DNA from: Mesorhizobium sp. 65-26
GTDB lineage: Bacteria; Pseudomonadota; Alphaproteobacteria; Rhizobiales; Rhizobiaceae
NCBI GenBank assembly: GCA_001899205.1
Contig: MKVL01000023.1
Coordinates: 62,001 to 126,000, forward strand
Length of the DNA: 64,000 nt
Direction: 5' to 3'
Shown: in pieces, positions 13,669-33,643 of the stretch
How the letters are laid out: each line of letters begins with the position of its first letter
How positions within the stretch are numbered: the first letter of the stretch is position 1
Translations under genes and position numbers: made by a program
Notes under the pieces: generated by a model
What the model saw: the letters and a program-made list of their open reading frames with translations, nothing else
Databases searched by the model: none
Told to the model about the DNA's origin: nothing

Positions 13669-14583
13669 CTACACCGCGGCCTCGATCGGCTCGGCCAGCT
13701 TCGGATTCGAGCGCGAGGCGATCAGGCAACTGGCAACGATAAGCCCGGCTCCGGCTAGCGTGGTCCAGGTCACCGCCTCGTCGAAGAAGAGCCAGCCGAG
13801 CCCTATCGCCCAGATGAAGGCGGAATATTCCGTCGGGATCAGATATTGCGCCTCGGCGCGGGCATAGGACCAGCTCATCAGGAACTGGCCGGCGAGCGAC
13901 AGCGCCGTCACCCCGGCCAGCGGGAGCCAGAGGTCACTGGGCAGCGCGACGGCGAGCCATGGCGCGGCGACGCCCAGGATGATCGCGATGCAGAGGTTCT
14001 GGAACAGCATGATCTCCCCCGGCTTGGCCACCAGTGCCTGCTGCCGCGCAAGGATCAGGTTGTAGGCGTAGAACACCGTCGACAGCAGCACCGCCACGGT
14101 GCCGGCAAGCGCATCCTTGGCATAGCTTGCATGGCCGAGCTGCCCCGCCAGGATGATCGCGACGCCGGCGATGCCGGCCAGCGAGGCCCATATCGCCTGG
14201 CGCTGTATGCGCTCGCCCAGAAGCATCGCTGCCAGGAAAAGCGCGAACAGCGGCGCGACGAAGGAGAGCCCGATCGCCTCGGCGAGCGGCAACCGCGCGA
14301 GCCCCCAGAAGAAGGACAGCATGACAATGGCGACGGTGGCCGCGCGCATCGCGTGGAGCCTGAGAGCCGAAGGAGCGGGAAGCGAACGCGGCCCGCTCAG
14401 CCAGGTAGCGCCGGCAACCACCGTGGCAAGCATGCTGCGCCACAGCACCGTGTTGTAGACGCCGACGGCGAGGACCATGATCTTCATCCCGGCGTCCATC
14501 GCCGACAGAAGCAAGATGCCGAGCGCGCATACCAGCACCGGGATCAAGGGAGAAACTGCGCCGGCCGCGCTCGATGACTTCAC
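13669..14583 (-). CDS. EamA/DMT-family transporter
   Basis: The 304-residue protein shows ten hydrophobic helices and two EamA repeats; the first has RSMLATVVAGATW and SFFWGLARLPLAEAIGLSFVAPLFALFLAA, and the second has TALSLAGQFLMSWSYARAEAQYLIPTEY. These inner-membrane carriers export or import small metabolites; the substrate is unknown. I set the start at the GTG at 14583 because TGGGGGAA stands just before it and the hydrophobic region follows at once. The ATG-led frame from 14820 would add 79 residues of proline-rich sequence that looks non-coding. Confidence 0.88.
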   Translation of the reverse strand: MKSSSAAGAVSPLIPVLVCALGILLLSAMDAGMKIMVLAVGVYNTVLWRSMLATVVAGATWLSGPRSLPAPSALRLHAMRAATVAIVMLSFFWGLARLPLAEAIGLSFVAPLFALFLAAMLLGERIQRQAIWASLAGIAGVAIILAGQLGHASYAKDALAGTVAVLLSTVFYAYNLILARQQALVAKPGEIMLFQNLCIAIILGVAAPWLAVALPSDLWLPLAGVTALSLAGQFLMSWSYARAEAQYLIPTEYSAFIWAIGLGWLFFDEAVTWTTLAGAGLIVASCLIASRSNPKLAEPIEAAV

Positions 14584-14701
14584 GGTTCCCCCATGTGACG
14601 GACTGCAGCCGGACATATCAGGGCAAGGCGGCGGGGCCAGATGGCAGCTTGGCCCACATCTCGGTCCAACGCCGCCCGCCTGATCTGTCCGGGCGCCGCC
14701 G

Positions 14702-16117
14702 TCAGCCGACAACCGCCTTGGGTTCAAGGAACGCCTCCAGCCCGAAGGGACCGAACTCCCGCCCGATACCGGAGTGCTTGAAACCGCCGAAGGGAGCTGG
14801 ACCGTCGGCTGGCGTTTCATTCACGACCACCCGGCCCGCCTCGAGATGGCGAGCGACATCGCGGGCATGCTCGAGATCGGAGCCGTGGACATAGGACTGC
14901 AGCCCGTAGTCGGTGTCGTTGGCGATAGTGATCGCCTCAGCCTCGTCTTCGTAGGCGATGACACTCAGCACCGGCCCGAAAATCTCCTCGCGTGCGATCC
15001 GCATGTCGTTGGTGACATCCGTAAAGACAGTCGGGCGCACGAACCAGCCATGATCGAGGTCCCGCGGCCTGCCGGGACCGCCCACGAGCAGGGTGGCGCC
15101 CTCCTCCTGCCCCAGCCTGATGTAGGACTGGACGCGCTCCCATTGCTTCGCGCTGACCATGGGGCCGACGCCGGCCTGCGGATCGCTGGACGGCCCGGCC
15201 CTGAGGTCGGCAACGGCCTCGGCAAGGCGCGCGGTCACCTCCGCCTGCCGCCGCCGCGAAACGAGAAGCCGGGTGCCCGCGATGCAGGCCTGGCCGCTGT
15301 TGCGGAAGGCGGCCGCGACGATGTCCGGGATCGCCCGGTCGAGATCGGCATCGTCGAGCAGGACCTGCGGCCCTTTGCCGCCAAGCTCCAGCGTCACGCG
15401 TTTGAAGGTCTCGGCCGCTGAACGCAGGATAGCGCGCCCGGTCGCGGTCGAGCCGGTGAAGCTGATCTTGGCGATGTCCGGATGAGCGCTCAGCGCGGCG
15501 CCGACCACATGGCCATAGCCGTTGACGACATTCAGCACGCCGCGCGGCAGGCCGGCTTCATGCAATGCCTCCAGCAGCGTCTGCGTCTGGATCGCGCTCA
15601 TCTCGGAAGGCTTGATGACGATGGTGGTGCCCGCCGCGATGGCCGTTGCGAGCTTGGTGCAGATGAAGCCGATGTTGCTGTTCCAGGGCGTGATCGCCGC
15701 GGCGACGCCGACCGGTTCCATGATCACCTCGGCATTGCCCATGCGACGGGTAAACGGATAGTCCGAGACGATCTTCGCCGCCGTATCGAAGACCTGGGCG
15801 GCATGCGGTACGGAAAAGGCGAGGAAGCCCTGCGGCGCGCCGTATTCCGTCGCCATCGCCTCGTGGAGAGCGGCGGATTTCGCGGCAACCGCGTCGCGCA
15901 GCGCGTGCAGCATGGCGATGCGCTCGGCCGGTGTGGTGCCGCGCATGGCGGGGAAGGCGCGCTTGGCCGCGGCGACGGCGGCGCGTACGTCCTCCGCGTC
16001 GCCGAGGCGGACCTCGCCGATCTTCTCCTCGGTCGCCGGGTTGAACAGGTCGAAGCGTTCCGTGCCGTGCGGGGTCGTGAAAGCGCCATCGATGTAGATC
16101 TGGTCGACGTTTTTCAT
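14702..16117 (-). CDS. NAD(P)-dependent aldehyde dehydrogenase
   Basis: The 471-residue protein is a complete ALDH-superfamily enzyme. Asn146 (TPWNSNIG), the cofactor loop IKPSEMSA near 169, the general base Glu244 (LELGGKGPQ) and the nucleophile Cys278 (FRNSGQACIAG) are all present. It oxidises an aldehyde to the acid in the cytoplasm; the substrate cannot be predicted. AGGAG lies 9 bases before the ATG at 16117. It is divergent from the LysR gene at 16214, whose product probably controls it. A much longer open frame continues upstream through the LysR gene but is an opposite-strand artefact of high GC. Confidence 0.93.
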   Translation of the reverse strand: MKNVDQIYIDGAFTTPHGTERFDLFNPATEEKIGEVRLGDAEDVRAAVAAAKRAFPAMRGTTPAERIAMLHALRDAVAAKSAALHEAMATEYGAPQGFLAFSVPHAAQVFDTAAKIVSDYPFTRRMGNAEVIMEPVGVAAAITPWNSNIGFICTKLATAIAAGTTIVIKPSEMSAIQTQTLLEALHEAGLPRGVLNVVNGYGHVVGAALSAHPDIAKISFTGSTATGRAILRSAAETFKRVTLELGGKGPQVLLDDADLDRAIPDIVAAAFRNSGQACIAGTRLLVSRRRQAEVTARLAEAVADLRAGPSSDPQAGVGPMVSAKQWERVQSYIRLGQEEGATLLVGGPGRPRDLDHGWFVRPTVFTDVTNDMRIAREEIFGPVLSVIAYEDEAEAITIANDTDYGLQSYVHGSDLEHARDVARHLEAGRVVVNETPADGPAPFGGFKHSGIGREFGPFGLEAFLEPKAVVG

Positions 16118-16213
16118 CTGCGGTCTCCTGTTGTTGACGACAGGGATATGCAACCGCGCGGCCGTTACGATAAGATCATCAATCACCAACACCCTGATGA
16201 GCAAGATTGCACA

Positions 16214-17116
16214 ATGAAAGCCAGTCTGCCCGAGCTCGAAGCGGCGGCCACGATTGCGCGGCTTGGCGGATTCCGGCCCGCCGCGCGCGTGTTGAATGTG
16301 TCGTCCTCCGCTCTCAGTCACGCCGTGGCGGCGCTGGAGAGCCGGCTGGGCGTTCGGCTCTTCAACCGCACAACGCGCTCGGTGGCGTTGACCGCGGCCG
16401 GCGAGGCCTTCGTGGCTGATATCGCCCCCGCCCTCGCCGCCATCGACGGCGCCGTCGAGCGCGTTCGTGAATCGCAGGCGCAGCCGACCGGAATGCTGCG
16501 GCTCAACACATCGCTCGGAGCGGCGCGGCTGCTGCTGGAGCCGCTGCTGCTCGAATATCTGCGCCGCTATCCAGGCATGTCCCTGGAACTGGTGACCGAG
16601 GGTGCCCTGATCGACATTACCGGGCAAGGGTTCGATGCCGGCTTCCGTCTGGCCGAGGCCGTGCCGCCGGACATGATCGCCATACCGGTCACCCGGCGGG
16701 AGCGGATGGTGGTGGTCGGCGCGCCGGCTTACCTGCGGGATCGCGACATGCCCCGCCATCCGGCCGATCTGACGGCGCATCGCTGCATCCGGGCCAGGAT
16801 GGCGAGCGGCCGCGTCTATCACTGGGAGTTCTCGCGCCAGGACGAGAGCCTGGCGATCGATGTGCCCGGCCAGTTGATCCTGGACGAGAGCGGGCTGATC
16901 CTTCAGGCCGCCCTGGACGGGGCAGGCCTCGCCTATGTGTGGGAGTGGTCGGCCCGCCCGCATCTGGAGGCGGGGCGACTGCTGCGGATGCTGGACGACT
17001 GGACGCCGCCCTATGATGGCATCAGCCTCTACTATCCCGGCCGCCGCCACGTGCCGGCAAAGCTGCGCGCCCTGATCGCCCTGGCGCGCGAACTGCGGCT
17101 GGAGGGCGCCCGCTGA
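16214..17116 (+). CDS. LysR family transcriptional regulator
   Basis: The 300-residue protein has the N-terminal winged HTH of LysR regulators (FRPAARVLNVSSSALSHAVA then LESRLGVRLFNRTTRSVALT, residues about 20-65) and a periplasmic-binding-like effector domain at about 90-295. It most resembles the subgroup often annotated AaeR/DsdC-like with a MLRLNTSLGAARLLL domain entry. The ATG at 16214 follows a 96-base intergenic region shared with the aldehyde dehydrogenase at 16117, the likely target. Confidence 0.92.
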   Translation: MKASLPELEAAATIARLGGFRPAARVLNVSSSALSHAVAALESRLGVRLFNRTTRSVALTAAGEAFVADIAPALAAIDGAVERVRESQAQPTGMLRLNTSLGAARLLLEPLLLEYLRRYPGMSLELVTEGALIDITGQGFDAGFRLAEAVPPDMIAIPVTRRERMVVVGAPAYLRDRDMPRHPADLTAHRCIRARMASGRVYHWEFSRQDESLAIDVPGQLILDESGLILQAALDGAGLAYVWEWSARPHLEAGRLLRMLDDWTPPYDGISLYYPGRRHVPAKLRALIALARELRLEGAR

Positions 17117-17137
17117 CGAGCGGCTCGATACCGCCGC

Positions 17138-17995
17138 TTAGGCCGCCGGGATCTTGTCGGGAGCCATGAAGGCGCGCATCGACGCCAGACCGATCCGCGC
17201 GGCATCGAGCGGCGGCTTTTTCCAGAGGTCCTCGTTAAGCAGTTCCAGCGTCCAGTAGCCATCATAGCCGGTCGACATGATGGCGTCGCGGTAGTCGCCC
17301 ACCGGGATCACGCCATCGCCAGGCAGCACCCGATCGCCGTCGCCAAGATTGCTCTTCGCCATGTCGCGGGCGTCGGTCACATGGACGCCGACGATCTCGC
17401 CCCTGCCCAGGGAAGCCAGTTCCGCCACCGATCCGCCGCCACGGAAATGGTGAAAGAAATCGACGTTGACGCCAACCGCCGGATCGTTCGCCTCGCCGAC
17501 CAGCCGGCGGGTCTCCGCGAGCGTGTCGAGGACGAAGGGGCCGATCGGCTCGCCGAGCGACATGAACTCGACGCCGATGCGCAGGCCATGGTCGGCGGCC
17601 ATGCGGCCAGCTCGCCTGAGATTGCCGACGGCGCCCTTCTGCCAGGCCGGGTCGTCCACCCAGCGGGACGCGTCGGCGCCGATGCCAATGTTGTCGATGC
17701 CCAGAGCCTTGCAGATCTCGAACTCGCGGCGCAGGCCGGCGAGATAGGTCTCGAACTGCGCGCCGCGCGACAGGAGGAGCGCCGGACCGCTTGGTGCGAG
17801 GCCGATGGCTCCCGTCGCCTTGAGGCCGTGGCCGGCGAGCAGGTCGACGAGTTCGCCGATCCCGTGCCGGTCCAGGTATCTCTGCACCTTCGCCACCTGG
17901 ATCTCCGCCGCGTCGAAGCCGGCGGCGGCGAAGGCGGGCAGGTCCTCCTCCAGCGGCGCGGGCAAGGTCGTGATCTCGGACATGCTGATCTTCAT
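17138..17995 (-). CDS. Sugar phosphate isomerase/epimerase (xylose isomerase-like TIM barrel)
   Basis: The 285-residue protein is an AP-endonuclease-2/xylose-isomerase-like TIM barrel. Glu at the end of GLRIGVEFMSLGEPIG, the Asp and His residues in GVNVDFFHHFRGG, the HVTDARDM strand and the C-terminal GYWTLELLNEDLW are the usual metal-site strands. Such enzymes isomerise or epimerise keto-sugars, or dehydrate inosose-type cyclitols. It is the last gene of the ABC-transporter operon that begins near 24.4 kb, 27 bases after the second ATPase gene. A second, unrelated-looking TIM-barrel epimerase starts the same operon. Confidence 0.87.
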   Translation of the reverse strand: MKISMSEITTLPAPLEEDLPAFAAAGFDAAEIQVAKVQRYLDRHGIGELVDLLAGHGLKATGAIGLAPSGPALLLSRGAQFETYLAGLRREFEICKALGIDNIGIGADASRWVDDPAWQKGAVGNLRRAGRMAADHGLRIGVEFMSLGEPIGPFVLDTLAETRRLVGEANDPAVGVNVDFFHHFRGGGSVAELASLGRGEIVGVHVTDARDMAKSNLGDGDRVLPGDGVIPVGDYRDAIMSTGYDGYWTLELLNEDLWKKPPLDAARIGLASMRAFMAPDKIPAA

Positions 17996-18022
17996 GGGAA
18001 CTCCGGTTTCTGGAAAGGCGCT

Positions 18023-18844
18023 TCAGCGCGGGGTGTCGGGAATCTCGCTCGTCCAGCGATCATTCGGATCGGACGAGGGAACGGAGCGCACCAGCATCCC
18101 GGTGTAGGGATGCCGGGGCCGGGTCACCACCTCGAGCGGATCGCCACGCTCGACGATCTCGCCGTTGAGCGCGATCAGCAGCTCATCGCTGATCTGCAGC
18201 GCCGTCGACAGGTCGTGGGTGATGTAGAGGATGCTGACGCCGAGCTGTTCCTTGATCTCGACCAGCTGCCTGAGCACCAGTATGCGCAACGAAGCGTCGA
18301 TCATCGAGACCGGCTCGTCGGCCACCAGGACACGCGGCTTGAGCAGCAGGGCGCGCGCGATCTGGATGCGTTGCAGCTGCCCGCCCGAAAGCTGGTGCGC
18401 ATAGCGGCCGAGCACGCGCTGCGGGTCGAGACGGACGCGGGCGAGCACGCCCTCGACCGCCTGCCGGGCCTCGCTGGAACGCCGATCCATGCCGAGCTGG
18501 CGCAAGGCAAGGTGGAAGGTATGGTCGACGCGATAGAACGGGTTGAACACCTCGAACGGGTTTTGGAAGACAGCCTGGACGGAGCGCCGGAACTGGCGGC
18601 GGTGCCGGTCCGCCATCGTGGCGATGTCCTGCCCCTCGAACAGCACCTGTCCCGAGGTCGGAGCGAGAAAGCCGAGCGCCATCAGCGCCAGCGTCGATTT
18701 CCCGCAACCGCTTTCCCCGGCAAGGGTGATCAGCCTCGGGCTGTCGCCGGGAAAGACGAGCGACATGGATTTCACCGCCGTCACCGACTTTCCGCCGGCG
18801 TTGAAGGTCCGGCCCGCGTCGCGGATTTCCATCAGCGCCGTCAT
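18023..18844 (-). CDS. ABC transporter ATP-binding protein, peptide/Opp type (second ATPase)
   Basis: The 273-residue protein has Walker A GESGCGKST at residues 43-51, the signature LSGGQLQRIQIARALLLKP, Walker B VLVADEP and the switch His in YITHDLSTA. The C-terminal RHPYTGMLVRSVPSSDP is typical of OppF/DppF-like subunits. One departure from the consensus is SMIDASLR where most have SALDVS. It pairs with the ATPase just upstream; their genes overlap by ATGA (18841-18844). It would power the permeases encoded at 19752-21607. Confidence 0.92.
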   Translation of the reverse strand: MTALMEIRDAGRTFNAGGKSVTAVKSMSLVFPGDSPRLITLAGESGCGKSTLALMALGFLAPTSGQVLFEGQDIATMADRHRRQFRRSVQAVFQNPFEVFNPFYRVDHTFHLALRQLGMDRRSSEARQAVEGVLARVRLDPQRVLGRYAHQLSGGQLQRIQIARALLLKPRVLVADEPVSMIDASLRILVLRQLVEIKEQLGVSILYITHDLSTALQISDELLIALNGEIVERGDPLEVVTRPRHPYTGMLVRSVPSSDPNDRWTSEIPDTPR

Positions 18845-25892: not shown

Positions 25893-26285
25893 TTGATACC
25901 GAGGCACCCACACCGCACCGAGGACTGCCGCGCCGTGTCGGAGATTCTCCAGCGCGTCGGCGACAAATGGACCGTGCTTGTGGTGGGCAAGCTGGGCGAG
26001 GGTCCGCTGCGCTTCAACGAACTGCGCTCGGCCGTCGGCGGCATCTCGCAGAAGATGCTGACATCGACGCTGCGCGGGCTGGAGCGCGACGGTTTCGTCA
26101 CCCGAACCGTGTTTCCGACCATCCCGCCGCGTGTCGACTACGAGCTGACCGACCTCGGCCACGAGTTGCTGGTTCCCGTCAGCGCGCTCGGCGAATGGGC
26201 GCGCTTGAACACGACGCGCGTGCGCGAGGCGCGGGCGCGGTTCGACGGGCTGCATGACGACAAGGATCTGAGGCGCATGGCCTAA
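25893..26285 (+). CDS. HxlR family transcriptional regulator
   Basis: The product is 130 residues if it starts at the TTG at 25893. Its winged HTH reads ILQRVGDKWTVLVVGKLGEG, RFNELRSAVGGISQKMLTSTLRGLERDGFV, then PPRVDYELTDLGHEL, the core HxlR signature. A single Cys (HRTEDCRAVSEI, near residue 11) sits where redox- or aldehyde-sensing HxlR proteins have theirs. AAGGAGG at 25879-25885 stands 7 bases before the TTG, far better placed than for the in-frame ATG at 25854, which overlaps the operator region. It is divergent from the FMN reductase. Confidence 0.9.
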   Translation: MIPRHPHRTEDCRAVSEILQRVGDKWTVLVVGKLGEGPLRFNELRSAVGGISQKMLTSTLRGLERDGFVTRTVFPTIPPRVDYELTDLGHELLVPVSALGEWARLNTTRVREARARFDGLHDDKDLRRMA

Positions 26286-26345
26286 ACGGCGGAGCCCCGC
26301 GCCCAGGCTGGCATCCACGCCGGAGGCGGACGACGGGATGCGGTT

Positions 26346-28829
26346 TCACGGTTTCTTCTTTTCGTCGTCCTCTGGCTCATCGCCGAACGGCCATTGGTCC
26401 TTCACATAGCGGTCGATCACCTTCTTGAACCATTTTGGCATCTGGGTGATGTAGGGCACCTCGAAATAGTAATTGTCCATGCCGACATCCTTGGCGACCT
26501 GCGCCGCCAGCGCCTCGGCCTTTTTGACCAGGCTCTCCAGAACCACCTTCTTGCCGGTGTAGTCGACGAGGTCGAAGTCGGACGACCGTGTGAGGCCCGC
26601 GACGTCGAGCGAGTTCAGCATCTTCAGCAGGTTCGCCGCGAATGTCCCCTTCTTGTCGGCGCTGACATTGTTGCGCGCCTGTGCGTAGAGGCGCATCAGG
26701 CCGAGATCGTCGAGCGCCGTGCGATGGTCCGGTGCCAGATGCGCCTTCTTGTCGTTGTTCTCCAGCTTGTAGATCAGTAGCTCGATGCGCCGGTGCAGCC
26801 GTTCCAGCGACTTCAGCACCTTGTGCGTGGCGGATGCCGCGCGGATCGCCCCGTCATGCGCGGCCTGGTTGGCCTTGCGCTGCTCGTCGGTCGGGTTCTG
26901 CGGCACGCGCCGGCCGGGCGTCCGTTCCGCGCTCGAAAGGCCCACCCCGGCGCGCAGGTTGAGCGGGTTGCCGCGATAGGTCTGCGCGTTGATGTCGCTG
27001 ATGATGGCCGGGATGTGCTGGGCATAGAACGGATGGGCGGCGACGAACACCTCGTCGCCGCCGAGCATCACCTGGATGCTCTGGTCGAAATCGGGCAGCC
27101 TGCTTGTCTCGAGCGGAGCCGGGCTGAACAGGTCCTGCGCCGCACCGGCGCCGCTGGCTGAAAGCAGCTTCTTGTAGTAGTCGCGGAAGACGGCCACCAC
27201 CGCGTCATAGGTCACCCGCTTGCGCTCGACCGTCAGGTCGCCCGCCATGAAGGTGGCCTGCATCAGCTTGGCATCGCGCAGCTTGTCGTCGACGATGATC
27301 TCATTGGCGATCTCGTAGTGGGTCATCAGCTCGACGCCGAGGTCGCGGATATCCATGGCGACGAAGATCTGGTCCATCCAGTCCGAGGCATAGGCGTAGA
27401 AGGTGAATTCCGACGTCGCGCCGAGCACCGAGCGCTTGATCTTCTGGCTCATGTCGTAGGTGAGGAAGCGGATCAGCCGATCCCAGTCGATGGCCGGCGG
27501 CTTGGTCGAGGGCGGATCCGGCTCGACCAGCGTGGAGAAGATCGAAAGCGCCAGCGCATGGTAGGTGGCGAGCTGGTCGGGGAATTCCTTGGCCAGGAAT
27601 CCGGCGACGAAATCGATCATGTTGAGCGTCACCAGCCACAGTTCGACGAACTCTACCGTGGTCTTGAAGGCGACCTTCATGCCCTTGCCCAACGGCGGCT
27701 CGGTGACCTGCTTCTTGCGGATGTCGCGCACCACGTCCGGATTGGCGTAGGGCTTGCGCCGGTAGATGACGAACACGCTGATCCAGACAGTGTTCACATA
27801 GGTGATGTTGTAGTTGACGTTGAGGTTGGCGTCGCTCTGCTTGCGTACGGTGTCCTTGATCCTGTCGGCCGTCCTGAACACGTCGAGGAAGGTGCCGACG
27901 TCGAAGGCCCGGCCGCGATCGTCCTCGCCGCGCGGCGTCTTGCCGATCGACACCGATTTGGCCACCAGCTTGACCGGCCTCTCGTCGAGATCGTCGCGCT
28001 TTTCGTCCCAGCGGGCGACGGCCGCCGCCTTCAGCGCCTCGGTGATCAGCCGCAGCGTCAGCGCAATTGTGGTCCCCGCCATCAGCGGCTGCTCGGCATA
28101 GCCGTAGAGATAGGGGAAGCGGTAGACGTCCTTCTTGTTGAGCCGCTTGCGCAGGTCGCCAATGGCCTTCTGCCGCTTGTCGTCGTTCTTCTTGCGCGCG
28201 TCCGCCTCGGCCTTGTCGAGGATGGGCAGGAGATAGGCCTTGAGCTTGCGGTCGAAGTCGACGAGGCCGGCGGCGAAATCCTTCGCCGTCTTGCCGAGCG
28301 GCAGCACATAGGCGGTCTTGTAGTCCTGGCCGACCGTGACCCATTTGGGCGCCGGCGTCGAATCCGGTTGCCAGAACACCTCGGTGACTGCCTTCTGCCG
28401 CATGGCGATCCATTCGGAGTTCAGCTCGTAGCCGAGCACGTTGTCGTTGAGGTCCTTGATGCCGGTGTTGTCTTTCGCCTCGCCAGGAAACACCAGGACG
28501 TAGAGGCCGATCGCGCCGCCTATGCCGACCTTCTTCTTGTCGTCCTTGCCGGCGGCGCCCATCGGCCCCTGCCGCAATTGGGATAGCTCCCGGTAGAGCC
28601 CAAGCGAGGGCAACTGCCGGAGCACGGCGTTGCGCAGGTCACGCAACTCCCCCGGCGATGGCGCGACGCCACGGCGCCCCCTTTCCAGCAATTCGCGCAG
28701 CAACTGGCTCTCGGCCCAGATGGGCGCCGTCTGCTGGTTGTCGGCCAGATAGGTCGGCTCCAGCCATGCCTGCGCGAAGGACTGGGCATCGAAGGCAACG
28801 GAATCGTCCTTCTCGGGTTCAAGCGCCAT
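26346..28829 (-). CDS. Large conserved-looking protein of unknown function (827 aa)
   Basis: I do not recognise this family. There is no signal peptide and no clear membrane helix, although 395-435 (FVELWLVTLNMIDFVAGFLA and on) is notably hydrophobic. A charged helical stretch at about 195-235 (KLKAYLLPILDKAEADARKK) may be coiled coil, a second helical block lies at about 670-710 (SLERLHRRIELLIYKLENND), and the C-terminus is acidic then lysine-rich. Tyr, Trp and Phe are frequent, and the codon pattern is that of the flanking genes, so it is a real gene. It starts 18 bases after the 1046-residue gene, so the two form an operon and probably act together. Either a structural particle component or a pore/toxin accessory would fit; I cannot decide. 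Confidence 0.7.
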   Translation of the reverse strand: MALEPEKDDSVAFDAQSFAQAWLEPTYLADNQQTAPIWAESQLLRELLERGRRGVAPSPGELRDLRNAVLRQLPSLGLYRELSQLRQGPMGAAGKDDKKKVGIGGAIGLYVLVFPGEAKDNTGIKDLNDNVLGYELNSEWIAMRQKAVTEVFWQPDSTPAPKWVTVGQDYKTAYVLPLGKTAKDFAAGLVDFDRKLKAYLLPILDKAEADARKKNDDKRQKAIGDLRKRLNKKDVYRFPYLYGYAEQPLMAGTTIALTLRLITEALKAAAVARWDEKRDDLDERPVKLVAKSVSIGKTPRGEDDRGRAFDVGTFLDVFRTADRIKDTVRKQSDANLNVNYNITYVNTVWISVFVIYRRKPYANPDVVRDIRKKQVTEPPLGKGMKVAFKTTVEFVELWLVTLNMIDFVAGFLAKEFPDQLATYHALALSIFSTLVEPDPPSTKPPAIDWDRLIRFLTYDMSQKIKRSVLGATSEFTFYAYASDWMDQIFVAMDIRDLGVELMTHYEIANEIIVDDKLRDAKLMQATFMAGDLTVERKRVTYDAVVAVFRDYYKKLLSASGAGAAQDLFSPAPLETSRLPDFDQSIQVMLGGDEVFVAAHPFYAQHIPAIISDINAQTYRGNPLNLRAGVGLSSAERTPGRRVPQNPTDEQRKANQAAHDGAIRAASATHKVLKSLERLHRRIELLIYKLENNDKKAHLAPDHRTALDDLGLMRLYAQARNNVSADKKGTFAANLLKMLNSLDVAGLTRSSDFDLVDYTGKKVVLESLVKKAEALAAQVAKDVGMDNYYFEVPYITQMPKWFKKVIDRYVKDQWPFGDEPEDDEKKKP

Positions 28830-28847
28830 GGCAGGTCATGCCCGGCC

Positions 28848-31800
28848 TCAGTTGATCACCAGGGAGTTGTCGAGCTTCACCAGATCGGTGGGAAGCCTGA
28901 CCTCCCAGGGCTGGCCGACGAGCACGCCGCCCAGCGCATAGCCCTGCCCTTGCGCCGACTGGCCGTCATACGGCGCGGAAAGCGTGATGGTCTGGGCGTC
29001 CGCCACCGACTGGATGACATAGGTCGCGCCACCGACGATCAGCCGCCGGCCAACGTCGTCCTGGCTGAAGGCCGTGCCGGTGCCGCTCACCGCTGCGGAG
29101 CCGTGGGTGAGGTTGATCGTGCCCTGCCCATCCGTGTTGTTGTCGCCCTGCTGGCTCTTCAACTCGTCGATGATCGAAAGCTGCGTATCGTCGGGGCCGT
29201 AGTCGTCGGCATTGACCAGTACACCGTCCGTGCCGGGCAGCTCGCCGCTCGCCAGGTAGCTCAGGATCGCCTCCTCGAAGCCGCGCCGCACCGGCACCTT
29301 AACCCGCGCCGCGCCCGCCTGCAGGAACTGGGTGAACAGCGGATCGATGTCCCTGAGCTGCGCGACGGTCGCCCAGTCGTCCTTCTTGCCCCAGAAATAG
29401 GGGTAGAAGAGATAGACCATGTTGTTCCACTCGAAGCTCTGTTCGAACACCGCGATGTAAGCGCCCTCGGCCTTTGCCTCCGCGAAGTCGATCTCCGGAT
29501 AGCCATAGGGCGCGACGTTGCGCGCCACCGCGTCGAAGAGATCGAAGCGCTGGCCTGTGAGCAGCGAGATGCAGCCTTTCTTCAGCTCGATCTGCTCCGT
29601 GGCGCGATTGATGTCCGGGTTGGTGCCGGTAACGCCGCTGTCGGAAGCCCTGAGCTTGGCCTCGGCCACCGCCTGATCGTAGGCGCTCTTCTGGTCGTTG
29701 TAGGCGTTCATGATCGACGAGAAGGTCTTGAGCTGCCAGTCCTGGAACTTCTCCGTCGACAGGCTGCAGAACACCGTGACCAGGACTTCGTAATTGTGGA
29801 AGCCGATCGAATTCACCGTCACGGTCAGCGTCGGCGTCGGCAGCAGATGCAGCGTCCAGATGGCATGGTCGTCATTGGGCTCGATATATTCGCCCTGCTG
29901 TTCCTGAAGCTGGAAGAAGATGCGGTGCACGCCCGCCTGGGTCTCGCCATAGATGTTCACATAGGCGCTCTGGCAGAGATAGCCGTCGGCGATGGTGATG
30001 TCGAACATGTCCGAGCTCAGCAGCCGGTCGCCGACCGTCGGCATCTGGTCCGGGGCCTTCTTTGAACCGGAAGCGATCACCACGCTGGGCGGCGGCGGAT
30101 TGACGTCCTGCGCGCCGTATTTGCTTGCCCAGTAGAGATAGTTGTCGCGCGTGATGTCGGAAGCCTGCAGCGGCTGGAACGTCTGGCCGCCGACGCAGTA
30201 GCCGGGCGCGTCGGGGTTGGTCTGGGTTATGTCGTCGACCGGCCGGTTGCTCATGGCGTAGCGCAGGAAGGCCGCCGGTTCCGGCACGATGAACTCCAGC
30301 ATCAGCCGCTTGCCGTAGTTCACCACCTGGGCCTGGTAGATCTTGTCCAAATAGCGGTAGACGCCGACGATGTCGGCGGTGCCAACCTTGTTGTCGAAGG
30401 CATGCTCGTTGACCTCCTCGACAACATGGATCGTGGTCACGGTCCGGCTGGTCAGCGTGCGCGTCTGGATGCGCTCCACGGCCTTGGTCGCCACTTCGCG
30501 CGCATAGTTGGACGACGCGGTGTTGGACTGCTGCGTGGAGGTGCTGCTGGAGCTGTTGTAATTGGCGGTCGCATCCACCGAGGGACCGTAGGAGGCATGG
30601 ATGGTGAGGCCCGCGTCTTTGCTGGCGGTCTGGCTGATCACCGTCTGCGACTCCGTCTGCAGTTCGAAGCGCTCGCTGGTCGAGAGATCCTGCTCCTTGT
30701 CGGTGGTCGTCTCGGTCTCGGTCGTGTCGGTCTGCTGCGTGCTGTCGCTCGTCTTGAAGCGGCGCGAGCGCACTTCGCTCTTCAGCACGTTCTCGACATG
30801 AGCGATTTCGCCCAATTGGTAGCGCAGCAGCGCCTGCTCGACGACGAGCAGGTCGGCGATGCCCAGCACCCGGGCGTCGCCCTTGCCGCTCGGCACGGTA
30901 GGCTCGCTGTCCGGAGGCGTCTGGTCGAGCGTCGGCGCGCAAGGGCCCGGCGTGCGCGGCACGATCGGCAGCGGATCGATGATCACGCCATACCCGCCGG
31001 CCAGCGCATCGCTCGGCACGAAATTGGAGCCGATCTTGACCATCTGGCGGGCCGCGCCGGTGTCGGCATAGAGCCGCGAGGCGATGCCGGCCGCGCTCTT
31101 TTCCAGAAGGGTGACGGATTTGGCGACGTCGACGCCGGTCGCGCCGATGCCGAGGTTGGCGAGCGTCGTGCGCGTCGAAGCGCTGAGCGCGCCCGCTGCG
31201 GTGTCCGAAAGCACGAAGCCGGACGGGTTCGGCGCCGACAGGGCAACAGCCTTGCGGCCCGCGGGCTTGGCCGCCGGCTGCGCGCCCGCGCGTTCGAACG
31301 CACCGAGCAATTCCTCGCGCGCATCGCGACGCGCTGCGAGATCGGCGGCGAGCTGCGCCATCTGCTTGTTGCGCGCATCCGACGCCGCCTTGGCCGCGTC
31401 GGCCTGGGCCTGGCGCGCGGCTTTCAAATCATCGCTGGTCGACGGCAGCGGAAAGATGCCGGCCGGCAGCACCATCGGCGCGCCGAGAAACGCCGCGCGG
31501 GTCACGGCCTGGCCGCTGGCGAGGCGCCGGATCAGCCACAGCGTGCGCGCCAGCCGCGCCAGAAGCATGCGCGAACGCGGCGCGACGTCGCTGTCTATGG
31601 TCGCCGCCACGAGGCTGTCACAGGAACGCTGGCAGAGCGCCGCGAACGCATCGCCCGCCGCGTAACCGGCTGCATCCTGGCCGAGCCTGCTCTTGATCGC
31701 CGCGGCCGCGGCGTCGGCGAAGCCGGCATCGCCAAGCTGCGGCAAGGCACGCACCAGCGCCAGCATTGCCGGGTCGAGCCGGCCCGGCATGCCCAGGAAA

Positions 31801-31988
31801 TCCGCGGTGCCGACATAGCCGACAGCGAGCTTCTCCAGCGCGGCGCGCGAGCCGCTCGGCCGGGCATTGCGCAGGCTGGCGATCAGCTTGCCCTTGGACT
31901 GTCCGAGATCGACGGTGTCGTCGCCGGCGCTGTCCGAGGCGGGGCGGGGCGGACGAATGGTGACAAAGCGGAACACTTCGGTCGACAT
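28848..31988 (-). CDS. Giant protein of unknown function with Ser/Thr-rich beta region (1046 aa)
   Basis: I cannot name this family. Residues 1-185 are mostly helical; 185-235 is an Ala/Arg/Gln-rich probable coiled coil. Residues 414-520 are extremely rich in Ser, Thr and Gln with alternating polar pattern (for example SQTASKDAGLTIHASYGPS), continuing into VYRYLDKIYQAQVVNYGKRL at 543-562. A second helical hairpin is at 755-785. Residues 954-1021 look like a compact beta module (GTINLTHGSAAVSGTGTAF, ITLSAPYDGQSAQGQGYALG) similar to repeats seen in phage tail fibres, inserted before the end LPTDLVKLDNSLVIN. There is no signal peptide. GGAGGAGG precedes the ATG at 31988. It is the first gene of a two-gene operon with the 827-residue protein. 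Confidence 0.72.
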   Translation of the reverse strand: MSTEVFRFVTIRPPRPASDSAGDDTVDLGQSKGKLIASLRNARPSGSRAALEKLAVGYVGTADFLGMPGRLDPAMLALVRALPQLGDAGFADAAAAAIKSRLGQDAAGYAAGDAFAALCQRSCDSLVAATIDSDVAPRSRMLLARLARTLWLIRRLASGQAVTRAAFLGAPMVLPAGIFPLPSTSDDLKAARQAQADAAKAASDARNKQMAQLAADLAARRDAREELLGAFERAGAQPAAKPAGRKAVALSAPNPSGFVLSDTAAGALSASTRTTLANLGIGATGVDVAKSVTLLEKSAAGIASRLYADTGAARQMVKIGSNFVPSDALAGGYGVIIDPLPIVPRTPGPCAPTLDQTPPDSEPTVPSGKGDARVLGIADLLVVEQALLRYQLGEIAHVENVLKSEVRSRRFKTSDSTQQTDTTETETTTDKEQDLSTSERFELQTESQTVISQTASKDAGLTIHASYGPSVDATANYNSSSSTSTQQSNTASSNYAREVATKAVERIQTRTLTSRTVTTIHVVEEVNEHAFDNKVGTADIVGVYRYLDKIYQAQVVNYGKRLMLEFIVPEPAAFLRYAMSNRPVDDITQTNPDAPGYCVGGQTFQPLQASDITRDNYLYWASKYGAQDVNPPPPSVVIASGSKKAPDQMPTVGDRLLSSDMFDITIADGYLCQSAYVNIYGETQAGVHRIFFQLQEQQGEYIEPNDDHAIWTLHLLPTPTLTVTVNSIGFHNYEVLVTVFCSLSTEKFQDWQLKTFSSIMNAYNDQKSAYDQAVAEAKLRASDSGVTGTNPDINRATEQIELKKGCISLLTGQRFDLFDAVARNVAPYGYPEIDFAEAKAEGAYIAVFEQSFEWNNMVYLFYPYFWGKKDDWATVAQLRDIDPLFTQFLQAGAARVKVPVRRGFEEAILSYLASGELPGTDGVLVNADDYGPDDTQLSIIDELKSQQGDNNTDGQGTINLTHGSAAVSGTGTAFSQDDVGRRLIVGGATYVIQSVADAQTITLSAPYDGQSAQGQGYALGGVLVGQPWEVRLPTDLVKLDNSLVIN

Positions 31989-32130
31989 GCTGCCTCCTCC
32001 AGGTGGGCCGCCGCCGCGACCCCCTTCAAAAATCCCCACCCCTGGTCCCCTGCGAAATTCCGGCGGCTTCGACGCCGCCTGCTAACTCTTCGATCCGCGC
32101 GTGCCTCCAGCAGGTCGCGCCGATCGTCCT

Positions 32131-32331
32131 TCAGCGGCCCAATGACTGCTGCACCAGACCGCCATCCCAGACCCGCATCCGGCCGTCGGCGCGGCCAGCG
32201 CGTGACGCGATCAGGCAAGCCTGACGGCCGCGCCGTCTTTTCTCATTTCGGTGCAGGCCGCAGCCGTTCAGCAGGCAGGGCAAAACCGCCAGGGCGCATG
32301 TCAGCGCGCCATTCTGCAATCGTTGACGCAT
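32131..32331 (-). CDS. Small putative lipoprotein (66 aa)
   Basis: The 66-residue product starts with a lipoprotein signal: a basic start MRQRLQNG, a hydrophobic core and the lipobox LLNGC with Cys near residue 24. A strongly basic segment (HRNEKRRRGRQ) follows, then a short tail GRMRVWDGG. AAGGA lies 6 bases before the ATG at 32331. It is probably attached to a membrane. No function is known to me. The gene lies between the thioesterase and the 1046-aa gene, both on the same strand; the rest of this 480-base interval (31989-32470) shows no other gene. Confidence 0.5.
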   Translation of the reverse strand: MRQRLQNGALTCALAVLPCLLNGCGLHRNEKRRRGRQACLIASRAGRADGRMRVWDGGLVQQSLGR

Positions 32332-32470: not shown

Positions 32471-32866
32471 CTAGCTCTCGGCCGGAACGGGCTTCGGCTT
32501 GCCCTCGCCGTCCAGCGCCACCATCACGAAGTCGGCGTGTGTCACCTTCTCCATCAGGTCGGTGAGATAGCGCTGCGCCCACGCTTCGACCTTGAGCGTC
32601 ATCGAGGTGCGGCCGACGCGCTCGACATGGGTGTAGATGCACAGCGTGTCGCCGATCTTCATCGGCTTGGCGAAGGACATCTCCTTCACTGCCGCCGTCA
32701 CGACGCGGCCCCGGGCGCGTTCGGCGGCGCGGATGCCGCAGGCAAGGTCCATCTGCGCCATCACCCAGCCGCCGAAGATATCGCCGGCCGCGTTGGCGTC
32801 GGAAGGCATGGCGAGCGTGCGCAGCGTAAGGTCGCCGAGCGGTTTTCCGTCCGCGTAGTGCACCAT
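32471..32866 (-). CDS. Acyl-CoA thioesterase (hotdog fold, YciA type)
   Basis: The 131-residue protein is a single hotdog domain. TLAMPSDANAAGDIFGGWVMAQMDLACG contains the conserved Asn-X-X-Gly-Asp-Ile-Phe-Gly-Gly and the catalytic-region Asp on the central helix. VKEMSFAKPMKIGDTLCIY and the strand with THADFVMVALDGEGKPKPV complete the YciA/BACH pattern. It hydrolyses acyl-CoA esters in the cytoplasm. I chose the ATG at 32866 (MVHYADGKP); twenty upstream codons are not conserved in style. Confidence 0.9.
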   Translation of the reverse strand: MVHYADGKPLGDLTLRTLAMPSDANAAGDIFGGWVMAQMDLACGIRAAERARGRVVTAAVKEMSFAKPMKIGDTLCIYTHVERVGRTSMTLKVEAWAQRYLTDLMEKVTHADFVMVALDGEGKPKPVPAES

Positions 32867-33037
32867 GAAGACAACTCCTCGCCAATCTGGTGAGATTGCC
32901 CTAGCGGTCGCATGACAAATGGTCAACGCAGAGCGAATGCCGCCCTGCTATCGTTGCGGGACAGCGGTTAATTGGACACGGCTCGCGTTGACCGCGACAC
33001 GGACGCCTAACAATGGAGTCTACGAAGGAAAATGCGC

Positions 33038-33643
33038 ATGCAGGAGGAATGGGCAAGCGAAGAAGACGCTCGCGCGTACCGGGAAATCCGATCGTTGATC
33101 GATAAGTGGAGAAATCTCGGTCATGAAACATATCCGGATGGAACCGAGTGGATTGGCCATACACCGCATCGTGCGCCTGCCGCGTATTTACATCAGCTAT
33201 ATGCGCCACTAGGGGCTTCTGGAATTGAACAGTTGGAGTCCGAAGTTTCGTGTCGAATTCCAGAGGGTTTCCGTTGCTTTCTCAAGCTTCACAACGGGAT
33301 AGGACTGTTTGCGGGTTTGATAAATATTTATGGGCTACGAACCAACTGGTCACGCACGAAGTTGGTGGAGGCAGCTCAGCAACCATTTTCCATATTGGTG
33401 CCGAACGTTCAGAGACGACCAATCAATGCGCCGGATGACTTGCTCTTTGTTGGCTCCCTCGGGGAAAACAGGAATTTAATTGCCATGAACCCTGTGGGGA
33501 CGGTCTTTCGCTGGAAGAGCGGCGATCCTGTGTCCAACTCCACCAAATCCTACTCAAGCGTTTTCACTTTCCTCCTGGAAGAAGCCGACAGGGTTGTGGC
33601 CCTTTTCGACGGCGACGGGCGCCGGCGCGATTCTTACAATTAG
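33038..33643 (+). CDS. SMI1/KNR4 family protein, orphan immunity-like
   Basis: The 201-residue protein fits the SMI1/KNR4 (SUKH) superfamily: GIEQLESEVSCRIPEGFRCFLKLHNGIGLFAG is its typical helix-strand entry, with INIYGLR following, and DDLLFVGSLGENRNLIAMNPVG is the later conserved strand pair. Bacterial members mostly serve as immunity proteins for polymorphic nuclease or deaminase toxins. No toxin gene is next to it, so it is an orphan. Base composition is clearly lower in GC than all neighbours, a sign of recent acquisition. AAGGA at 33025-33029 is 8 bases before the ATG at 33038, better spaced than for the ATG at 33032. Confidence 0.8.
   Translation: MQEEWASEEDARAYREIRSLIDKWRNLGHETYPDGTEWIGHTPHRAPAAYLHQLYAPLGASGIEQLESEVSCRIPEGFRCFLKLHNGIGLFAGLINIYGLRTNWSRTKLVEAAQQPFSILVPNVQRRPINAPDDLLFVGSLGENRNLIAMNPVGTVFRWKSGDPVSNSTKSYSSVFTFLLEEADRVVALFDGDGRRRDSYN

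Follow-up and report, generated by a model that had tools for sequence, protein, structure and literature searches.

In a 64,000-nucleotide (nt) stretch of Mesorhizobium sp. 65-26 (contig MKVL01000023.1, positions 62,001 to 126,000; here called the window), two adjacent genes, P0001 and P0002, lie in that order on the minus strand, 18 nt apart, and encode proteins of 1046 and 827 residues. Comparison with relatives elsewhere showed that P0001 is a constant gene with a swappable neighbour, the payload having been exchanged recurrently, and that the pair in the window is a rare, mobile two-gene cassette inserted at a junction that is conserved across the genus. By sequence profile, P0001 belongs to a wide unnamed family of bacteria and archaea. 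These observations suggest an unrecognized two-gene weapon consisting of a constant carrier and an interchangeable payload. No title or abstract describing the P0001/P0002 pair was found in the open-access literature. A first-pass annotation had described a two-gene pair of large proteins and proposed a settled, undescribed machine, such as a particle, pore former or toxin pair. The arrangement of the genes was confirmed from the sequence, the system is undescribed and toxin pair is the best of the three guesses; the view of a settled, fixed pair did not survive the analysis.

Exchange of the gene that follows P0001 relatives

One genome per species was scanned with the family profile, which matched at least 591 stretches; at least 461 of them encode relatives of P0001. 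The best 80 of these were kept; being the best scoring, they lean to close relatives, and they span Bacteroidota, Pseudomonadota, Actinomycetota, Chloroflexota, Bacillota, Planctomycetota, Verrucomicrobiota, Acidobacteriota, Cyanobacteriota, Myxococcota and two archaea. Relatives were also located by tblastn on 14 plasmid records, with hosts including Sinorhizobium, Ensifer, Streptomyces, Tsukamurella, Nonomuraea, Cupriavidus, Chryseobacterium, a cyanobacterium and the archaeon Natronorubrum. In an alignment of 63 members, 18 columns are invariant, most of them in the conserved core (Table 1). Viral contigs gave no match to the P0001 sequence alone and three to the family profile, and 50,697 phage records contained no P0001 match. 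P0001 and P0002 are genes and not chance open reading frames (ORFs), because both are conserved at the protein level elsewhere: P0002 is 44% identical along its length to an 801-residue protein, the only relative found, which stands beside a P0001 relative in locus L016 (Allorhizocola).

A same-strand ORF of at least 80 residues starts within 350 nt downstream of the carrier, as we call P0001 and its relatives, in 86 of 89 loci, with no candidate partner in L017, L023 and L025. Under a stricter rule (at least 150 residues, starting within 60 nt), such a gene followed 68 of 87 carriers, compared with 157 of 382 other long ORFs of the same loci and 625 of 1620 random positions, an excess of about twofold over a high background. 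The upstream count, 17 of 80, was made under another rule than the downstream 68 of 87. It is conceivable that the partner is whatever gene happens to adjoin a mobile unknown gene, as the background of about 40% and the ordinary next genes of a few loci (PPK2 in L059) would allow. We consider this most improbable, given the excess after carriers over that after other long ORFs, the recurrence of the same partner families on distant branches and the presence of some families upstream of the carrier: Het-C in L042 at 22 nt, and a family of about 360 residues in L030 and L059 at 26 to 52 nt and in L010 at 425 nt.

Clustering placed the 82 usable partners in 31 groups, 14 of which have a single member, after exclusion of L026 and L086 (fragmentary carriers), L010 (a 100-residue cut) and L011 (wrong frame). 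Carriers sharing 80% or more identity in the core never had unrelated partners (0 of 10 pairs); unrelated partners were found in 41 of 57 pairs at 60 to 80% identity and in all 36 pairs at 50 to 60%, the pairs sharing ancestry and so not being independent. For example, carriers of Pseudanabaena and Vibrio with 74% core identity are followed by members of a pre-toxin and a patatin cluster, respectively. A FastTree tree built from the core, with 62 rows and 28 partner kinds, requires 36 changes of partner, nine more than the minimum of 27; partner kinds therefore recur on the carrier tree. The clade of the window has four members and three partner kinds: the P0002 type (also in Allorhizocola), an amine oxidase (Nitrosovibrio, 283 nt from the carrier) and a PhoD-like protein (Chitinophaga). 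Thus, P0001-type genes mostly stand beside other, unrelated partners, and P0001 and P0002 are no fixed pair, while a co-occurrence check placed P0002-type genes beside a P0001-type gene on both occasions that they were seen.

An inserted cassette that is rare in the genus

Alignment of the window to four same-genus loci ends at 26221-26246 and restarts at 32269 in L134 and at 32473-32477 in all four. Each flank is present in 143 of 144 same-genus genomes, the window's own counted. Pairing of the flanks covered 30 relatives, those following G000 and G058 in our table; in 29 of them the flanks lie on a single contig, 101 to 552 nt apart, and in G122 they lie on different contigs. The spacing is thus about 6 kb in the window's genome versus about 0.5 kb in congeners. 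No exact terminal repeat of 10 bases or more was found between the two stretches compared at the insertion ends. Just upstream of the insertion lies a small ORF with a lipoprotein-like start (32132-32330, minus strand), in a region of which 73 nt are kept (78%) in one relative.

The P0001 core occurs in 2 of 146 same-genus genomes, the window's own and G091; two more matches consist of the fibre-like module alone. The C-terminal extension of the G091 relative was considered as a possible peptidoglycan-binding part, but it has no Pfam or PDB match and this reading was abandoned. Among 299 genomes sampled from the phylum, the family profile matched four, including the window's. Searches for P0002 returned only its own genome among the 146 congeners, only L016 among 300 genomes of the L016 family, and no relative in plasmids or viral contigs. 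The pair had been called a settled chromosomal system, and the ~6-kb insertion at a genus-conserved junction, together with the rarity of the core, does not support that view. The GC content at third codon positions, the single measure of codon use taken here, is 0.88 and 0.89 for the two genes and falls inside the 0.69-0.90 span of five neighbours.

Partner proteins and a proposed effector cassette

Pfam and NCBIfam scans covered 86 candidate partners, before the frame and fragment exclusions. The Pfam families listed were patatin (12), Trypco1 (5), PT-TG pre-toxin (5), M23 (4), LodA (2), PLD (2) and PhoD (2), with amidase, SPOR, PAD, amine oxidase, PPK2 and Het-C among the single cases. The NCBIfam model VpdC, a type IV secretion system effector, matched 11 of the 86. 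Matches to Het-C were also found in genes adjoining the carrier in L051 and L042. The five PT-TG partners keep an FEAKAGK stretch, a possible nuclease motif by its appearance.

Several recurrent arrangements were seen among the partners. In L051, L053, L069, L073 and L085 the carrier is split and is followed by a short protein of a five-member cluster, whose members we took to be the five Trypco1 matches; L051 and L053 have a further 749-residue protein downstream, with a Het-C match in L051. In L028, L029, L032, L038 and L092 a partner family is accompanied by a second gene of about 500 residues, both being of no known kind, and L092 holds this two-gene set plus a patatin. The partner at L058 (12197-13279) and 10 related partners form an unnamed family, mostly of about 360 residues, with a conserved ELSxFSHGWxGGPIL; it is a recurrent downstream partner, with a relative upstream of the carrier in L030, L059 and L010.

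Two loci have the layout of polymorphic toxin systems. In L009 (Chryseobacterium plasmid, 14245-18527) the partner is a polymorphic toxin followed by orphan cassettes, and in L144 (11661-17775) orphan cassettes follow the second gene after the carrier. The cassettes have a junction segment in common with the gene that they follow (89%; 59 and 71% identity), beyond which they diverge, and repeated small genes, which may be immunity genes, lie between the cassettes of L144. A toxin gene followed by orphan cassettes is the template set out in a portion of the account by Zhang et al. 2012 (PMC3482391), and the likeness extends to variable tips; the difference is that here the constant part forms a protein of its own, which belongs to an unnamed family. 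L143 and L144 are loci of IMG/VR contigs and may therefore have a phage or mobile-element setting. In the window, no orphan cassettes were found between P0002 and the conserved HxlR and flavin mononucleotide (FMN) reductase genes, and no immunity gene was recognized inside the insertion.

Binary AB toxins consist of separate pore (B) and enzyme (A) proteins. The pair is like them in its predicted features, a two-gene operon in which a large constant protein with a putative Ser/Thr-rich amphipathic hairpin is joined by a varying second protein, and differs in that P0001 has no Pfam binary-toxin domain, the partners are of unrelated folds and there is no signal peptide. No homology of P0001 to a known pore-forming family was found in Pfam, or in PDB with the 63-row profile. 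In summary of these comparisons, the pair resembles a polymorphic or binary toxin system in its working but matches none of the named families.

The two proteins had also been described as lacking a signal peptide, and hydropathy agrees: neither has a signal-like N terminus. Judged by the same crude rule, 2 of 85 carriers and 5 of 83 partners have one, versus 148 of 826 neighbouring ORFs. Extracellular contractile injection systems (eCIS) and type VI secretion systems (T6SS) carry cargo effectors that include patatin, PLD and peptidoglycan hydrolases, and the effector kinds among carrier partners are similar. In contrast to those systems, the window's genome has no match to PF04984 (sheath) or PF05591 (VipA), other secretion systems not having been searched. 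In 48 carrier genomes (5 sampled genomes plus the genomes of 43 of the 80 loci), a sheath match was found in 19, a VipA match in 12 and neither in 20.

Downstream of the carrier in L031 (12083-15023) lie a LodA-like oxidase and then a flavoprotein, the gene order given for lod operons in an excerpt of PMC4417212; lod and gox operons as described there differ from L031 in that a P0001-type gene stands in front. The L031 and L037 partners have no signal-like N terminus, in contrast to the twin-arginine signal of GoxA noted in a passage of PMC3948610. LodA domains fill the L031 partner from residue 10 to 520 of 592, with one gap. The little room that this leaves for a docking domain, and the near-absence of leaders from carriers and partners by the crude rule, would fit an export helper: P0001 would sit in the envelope of the producer as a pore or carrier, let out leaderless proteins such as LodA-like oxidases, hydrolases and P0002, and have no role at a target cell. 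P0001 itself, however, shows neither a signal nor an extended hydrophobic segment (best 19-residue mean 1.46), and binding outside the cell is suggested by the fibre-like module present in 9 of the 63 members; we judge the export helper unlikely.

We regard it as probable that P0001 is a constant partner of a swappable antagonistic effector. The fuller reading, a two-gene effector cassette with constant carrier, swappable payload, leaderless release and delivery through a pore, is one that we favour by a modest measure. P0001 would be the constant component, composed of an N-terminal module and a core that holds the Ser/Thr-rich amphipathic hairpin, to which this subgroup adds a fibre-like binding module; P0002 would be the payload from the same operon. 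Both would be released without a classical secretion signal, by lysis or another form of export; P0001 would bind another cell, oligomerize and insert its hairpins (residues 455-481) as a beta-barrel, and P0002 would act on the target cell or enter it via the P0001 pore. Pore formation or translocation by P0001 is possible, and we put it forward tentatively on the pattern of residues in the hairpin. More speculative still is the idea that P0001 founds a minimal one-protein delivery platform of bacteria and archaea that could move leaderless effectors of unrelated kinds into or onto other cells without a secretion machine, its payload gene being replaceable like a cartridge, with P0002 representing a new effector class, possibly nucleotide-cyclase-like.

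An intracellular conflict or anti-phage device, in which P0001 senses infection or scaffolds a partner that kills the producer, would account for the sparse, mobile distribution and for the patatin, PLD and Trypco1 partners, which match families also used in immunity and conflict systems; part of the text of PMC7159879 describes Trypco1 together with trypsin-like peptidases. The M23 and SPOR-amidase partners, however, target the cell wall, LodA with its flavoprotein would produce hydrogen peroxide, L144 and L009 carry toxin cassettes, and P0001 and P0002, the two proteins that the PADLOC scan covered, have no match there. We consider such a device distinctly unlikely.

Several observations weigh against the effector cassette. 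Among the 86 partners, NCBIfam models of intracellular defence also found matches (the lipase of the cyclic-oligonucleotide-based antiphage signalling system, CBASS, 7; DS2_1 antiphage, 6; DrmC, 2), and about half, including P0002, fall outside the listed Pfam families; P0002 has no toxic or enzyme domain recognized by Pfam. The next-gene background of about 40% implies that some downstream genes are ordinary neighbours, such as PPK2 in L059, 294 nt away, and the amine oxidase partner of L015 lies 283 nt from its carrier. The possibility that the N-terminal module of the carrier specifies the partner found no support, as identity in this module was 0.342 with the same and 0.346 with different partners (60-80% band). 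No shared docking motif at the partner termini was seen by eye, no motif search having been run. The putative pore step draws on hairpin periodicity with no fold match, the hairpin turn, YGP, is not hydrophobic, and no third gene was recognized beside P0001 and P0002 in the insertion.

The P0001 family counts hundreds of members in bacteria and archaea, has no match in the Pfam and NCBIfam sets searched and adjoins effectors of many kinds. If it delivers them, this would account for the passage of leaderless LodA-type oxidases, patatins and wall hydrolases out of or into cells, and genomes could be mined for new effectors by way of the gene directly downstream of the carrier.

Features of the two proteins and their surroundings

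TABLE 1 Features of the P0001/P0002 cassette in the window
Feature	Position	Strand	Basis
P0001, constant component, 1046 residues	28848..31988	-	Unnamed family, 63 members aligned
P0002, variable partner, 827 residues, proposed effector	26346..28829	-	Single relative found; no Pfam, NCBIfam or PADLOC match
Ribosome-binding site of P0001, GGAGGAGG	31993..32000	-	Sequence
N-terminal module of P0001, residues 1-364, opening with F[RK][FL]xxxR	30897..31988	-	F6 in 59/63, R12 in 62/63; separate gene in L051, L053, L069, L073, L085
Conserved core of P0001, residues 365-950	29139..30896	-	Family alignment; 15/18 invariant columns
Ser/Thr/Gln-rich region of P0001, residues 414-520	30429..30749	-	48% S+T+Q; family mean 32% vs 16% elsewhere
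Conserved amphipathic beta-hairpin of P0001 (predicted), residues 455-481, turn YGP	30546..30626	-	Hydrophobic/polar alternation, 63 sequences
Phage-tail-fibre-like beta module of P0001, residues 955-1019	28932..29126	-	PHROGs E 5.8e-7 to 0.018; in 9/63 members
C-terminal motif of P0001, PWxxxxPTxL, within residues 1026-1040	28869..28913	-	W1028, T1034, L1036 in 63/63; P1033 in 62/63
GGDE motif of P0002, residues 590-593	27051..27062	-	Kept in both P0002-type proteins; lead for palm/GGDEF-like fold only
Inserted segment with both genes, approximate ends	~26250..32260	.	Alignment to four same-genus loci

P0001 starts with ATG behind a strong ribosome-binding site. Neither protein has a match worth naming in Pfam, NCBIfam or PADLOC, which bears out the earlier statement that both stand outside known families, except for the 65-residue P0001 module that matches PHROGs. 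Pfam gave nothing for P0001, and its scattered weak matches in 50 relatives reached at best E 0.00098 in a single member. PDB sequence searches with P0001 and with the 63-row profile produced no relevant match; matches of the profile to coronavirus nsp8 (E 0.0078 or worse) are helical, involve the variable N-terminal part and were taken as chance. The carrier is split near residue 365 into two adjacent genes in five loci, and P0001 therefore consists of two modules. In L008 (10303-13913, Natronorubrum) the annotated carrier is cut short, and the short ORF that comes next contains a weak match to the C-terminal motif; this gene may be frame-shifted or mis-assembled.

The first-pass annotation had pointed out a dense Ser/Thr/Gln region and a fibre-like beta module near the end of P0001, and both were recovered. 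The former is one residue off the richest 107-residue span of the protein and is richer in these residues than the protein remainder in 62 of 63 aligned members. Within it, the hydrophobic fraction among the 63 sequences is 0.49-0.98 in alternate columns of residues 455-467 and 471-481 and at most 0.16 in the columns in between, except column 480 (0.46); this is the strongest beta-periodicity among the non-gappy windows of the family alignment, and alpha-periodic stretches are also present in P0001. The fibre-like module matches PHROGs tail-fibre models (1980, 2712, 28473; best named one, E 1.3e-6). Likeness to phage tail-fibre proteins is confined to it, and the remainder of P0001 differs in having no phage family match above chance (865-882, E 0.2).

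A self-assembling particle or shell with the partner enzyme as cargo would also be expected to combine one large constant protein, bearing short conserved motifs at both termini, with a variable enzyme. Library and PDB searches, however, gave no capsid, shell or sheath family match for P0001, and its N- and C-terminal halves can be separate genes, which makes a cargo shell improbable.

No part of P0002 is strongly hydrophobic (best 19-residue mean 1.68), and a PDB search with P0002 and its two-row profile returned no result. The sequence VMLGGDEVFVAAHP is conserved in both P0002-type proteins and calls GGDEF and palm domains to mind. When residues 465-660 were compared by hhalign with 22 GGDEF domains of the same genome, 13 columns were aligned (P 0.007, probability 5%); when all of P0002 was used, the best alignment to this set fell outside the GGDE region. 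The motif is therefore a lead and not a family assignment. P0002 had no match to Pfam GGDEF at E values up to 10, and matches of the GGDE region to PDB were at chance level.

Eight neighbouring genes were scanned, and none is a phage or secretion gene, in line with the earlier remark that neither lies nearby; they are metabolic or regulatory, plus one SUKH protein. They encode a solute-binding protein, a TIM-barrel protein, an Lrp regulator, an FMN reductase, an HxlR regulator, a thioesterase, a glucose-methanol-choline (GMC) oxidoreductase and the SUKH protein. SUKH proteins are known immunity proteins. No SUKH relative was found among the ORFs near the other carriers examined. The SUKH-1 (SMI1/KNR4) gene of the window (33032-33643, plus strand, E 1.4e-8) lies about 1 kb from P0001, and it is also present in G058, which is without the pair.

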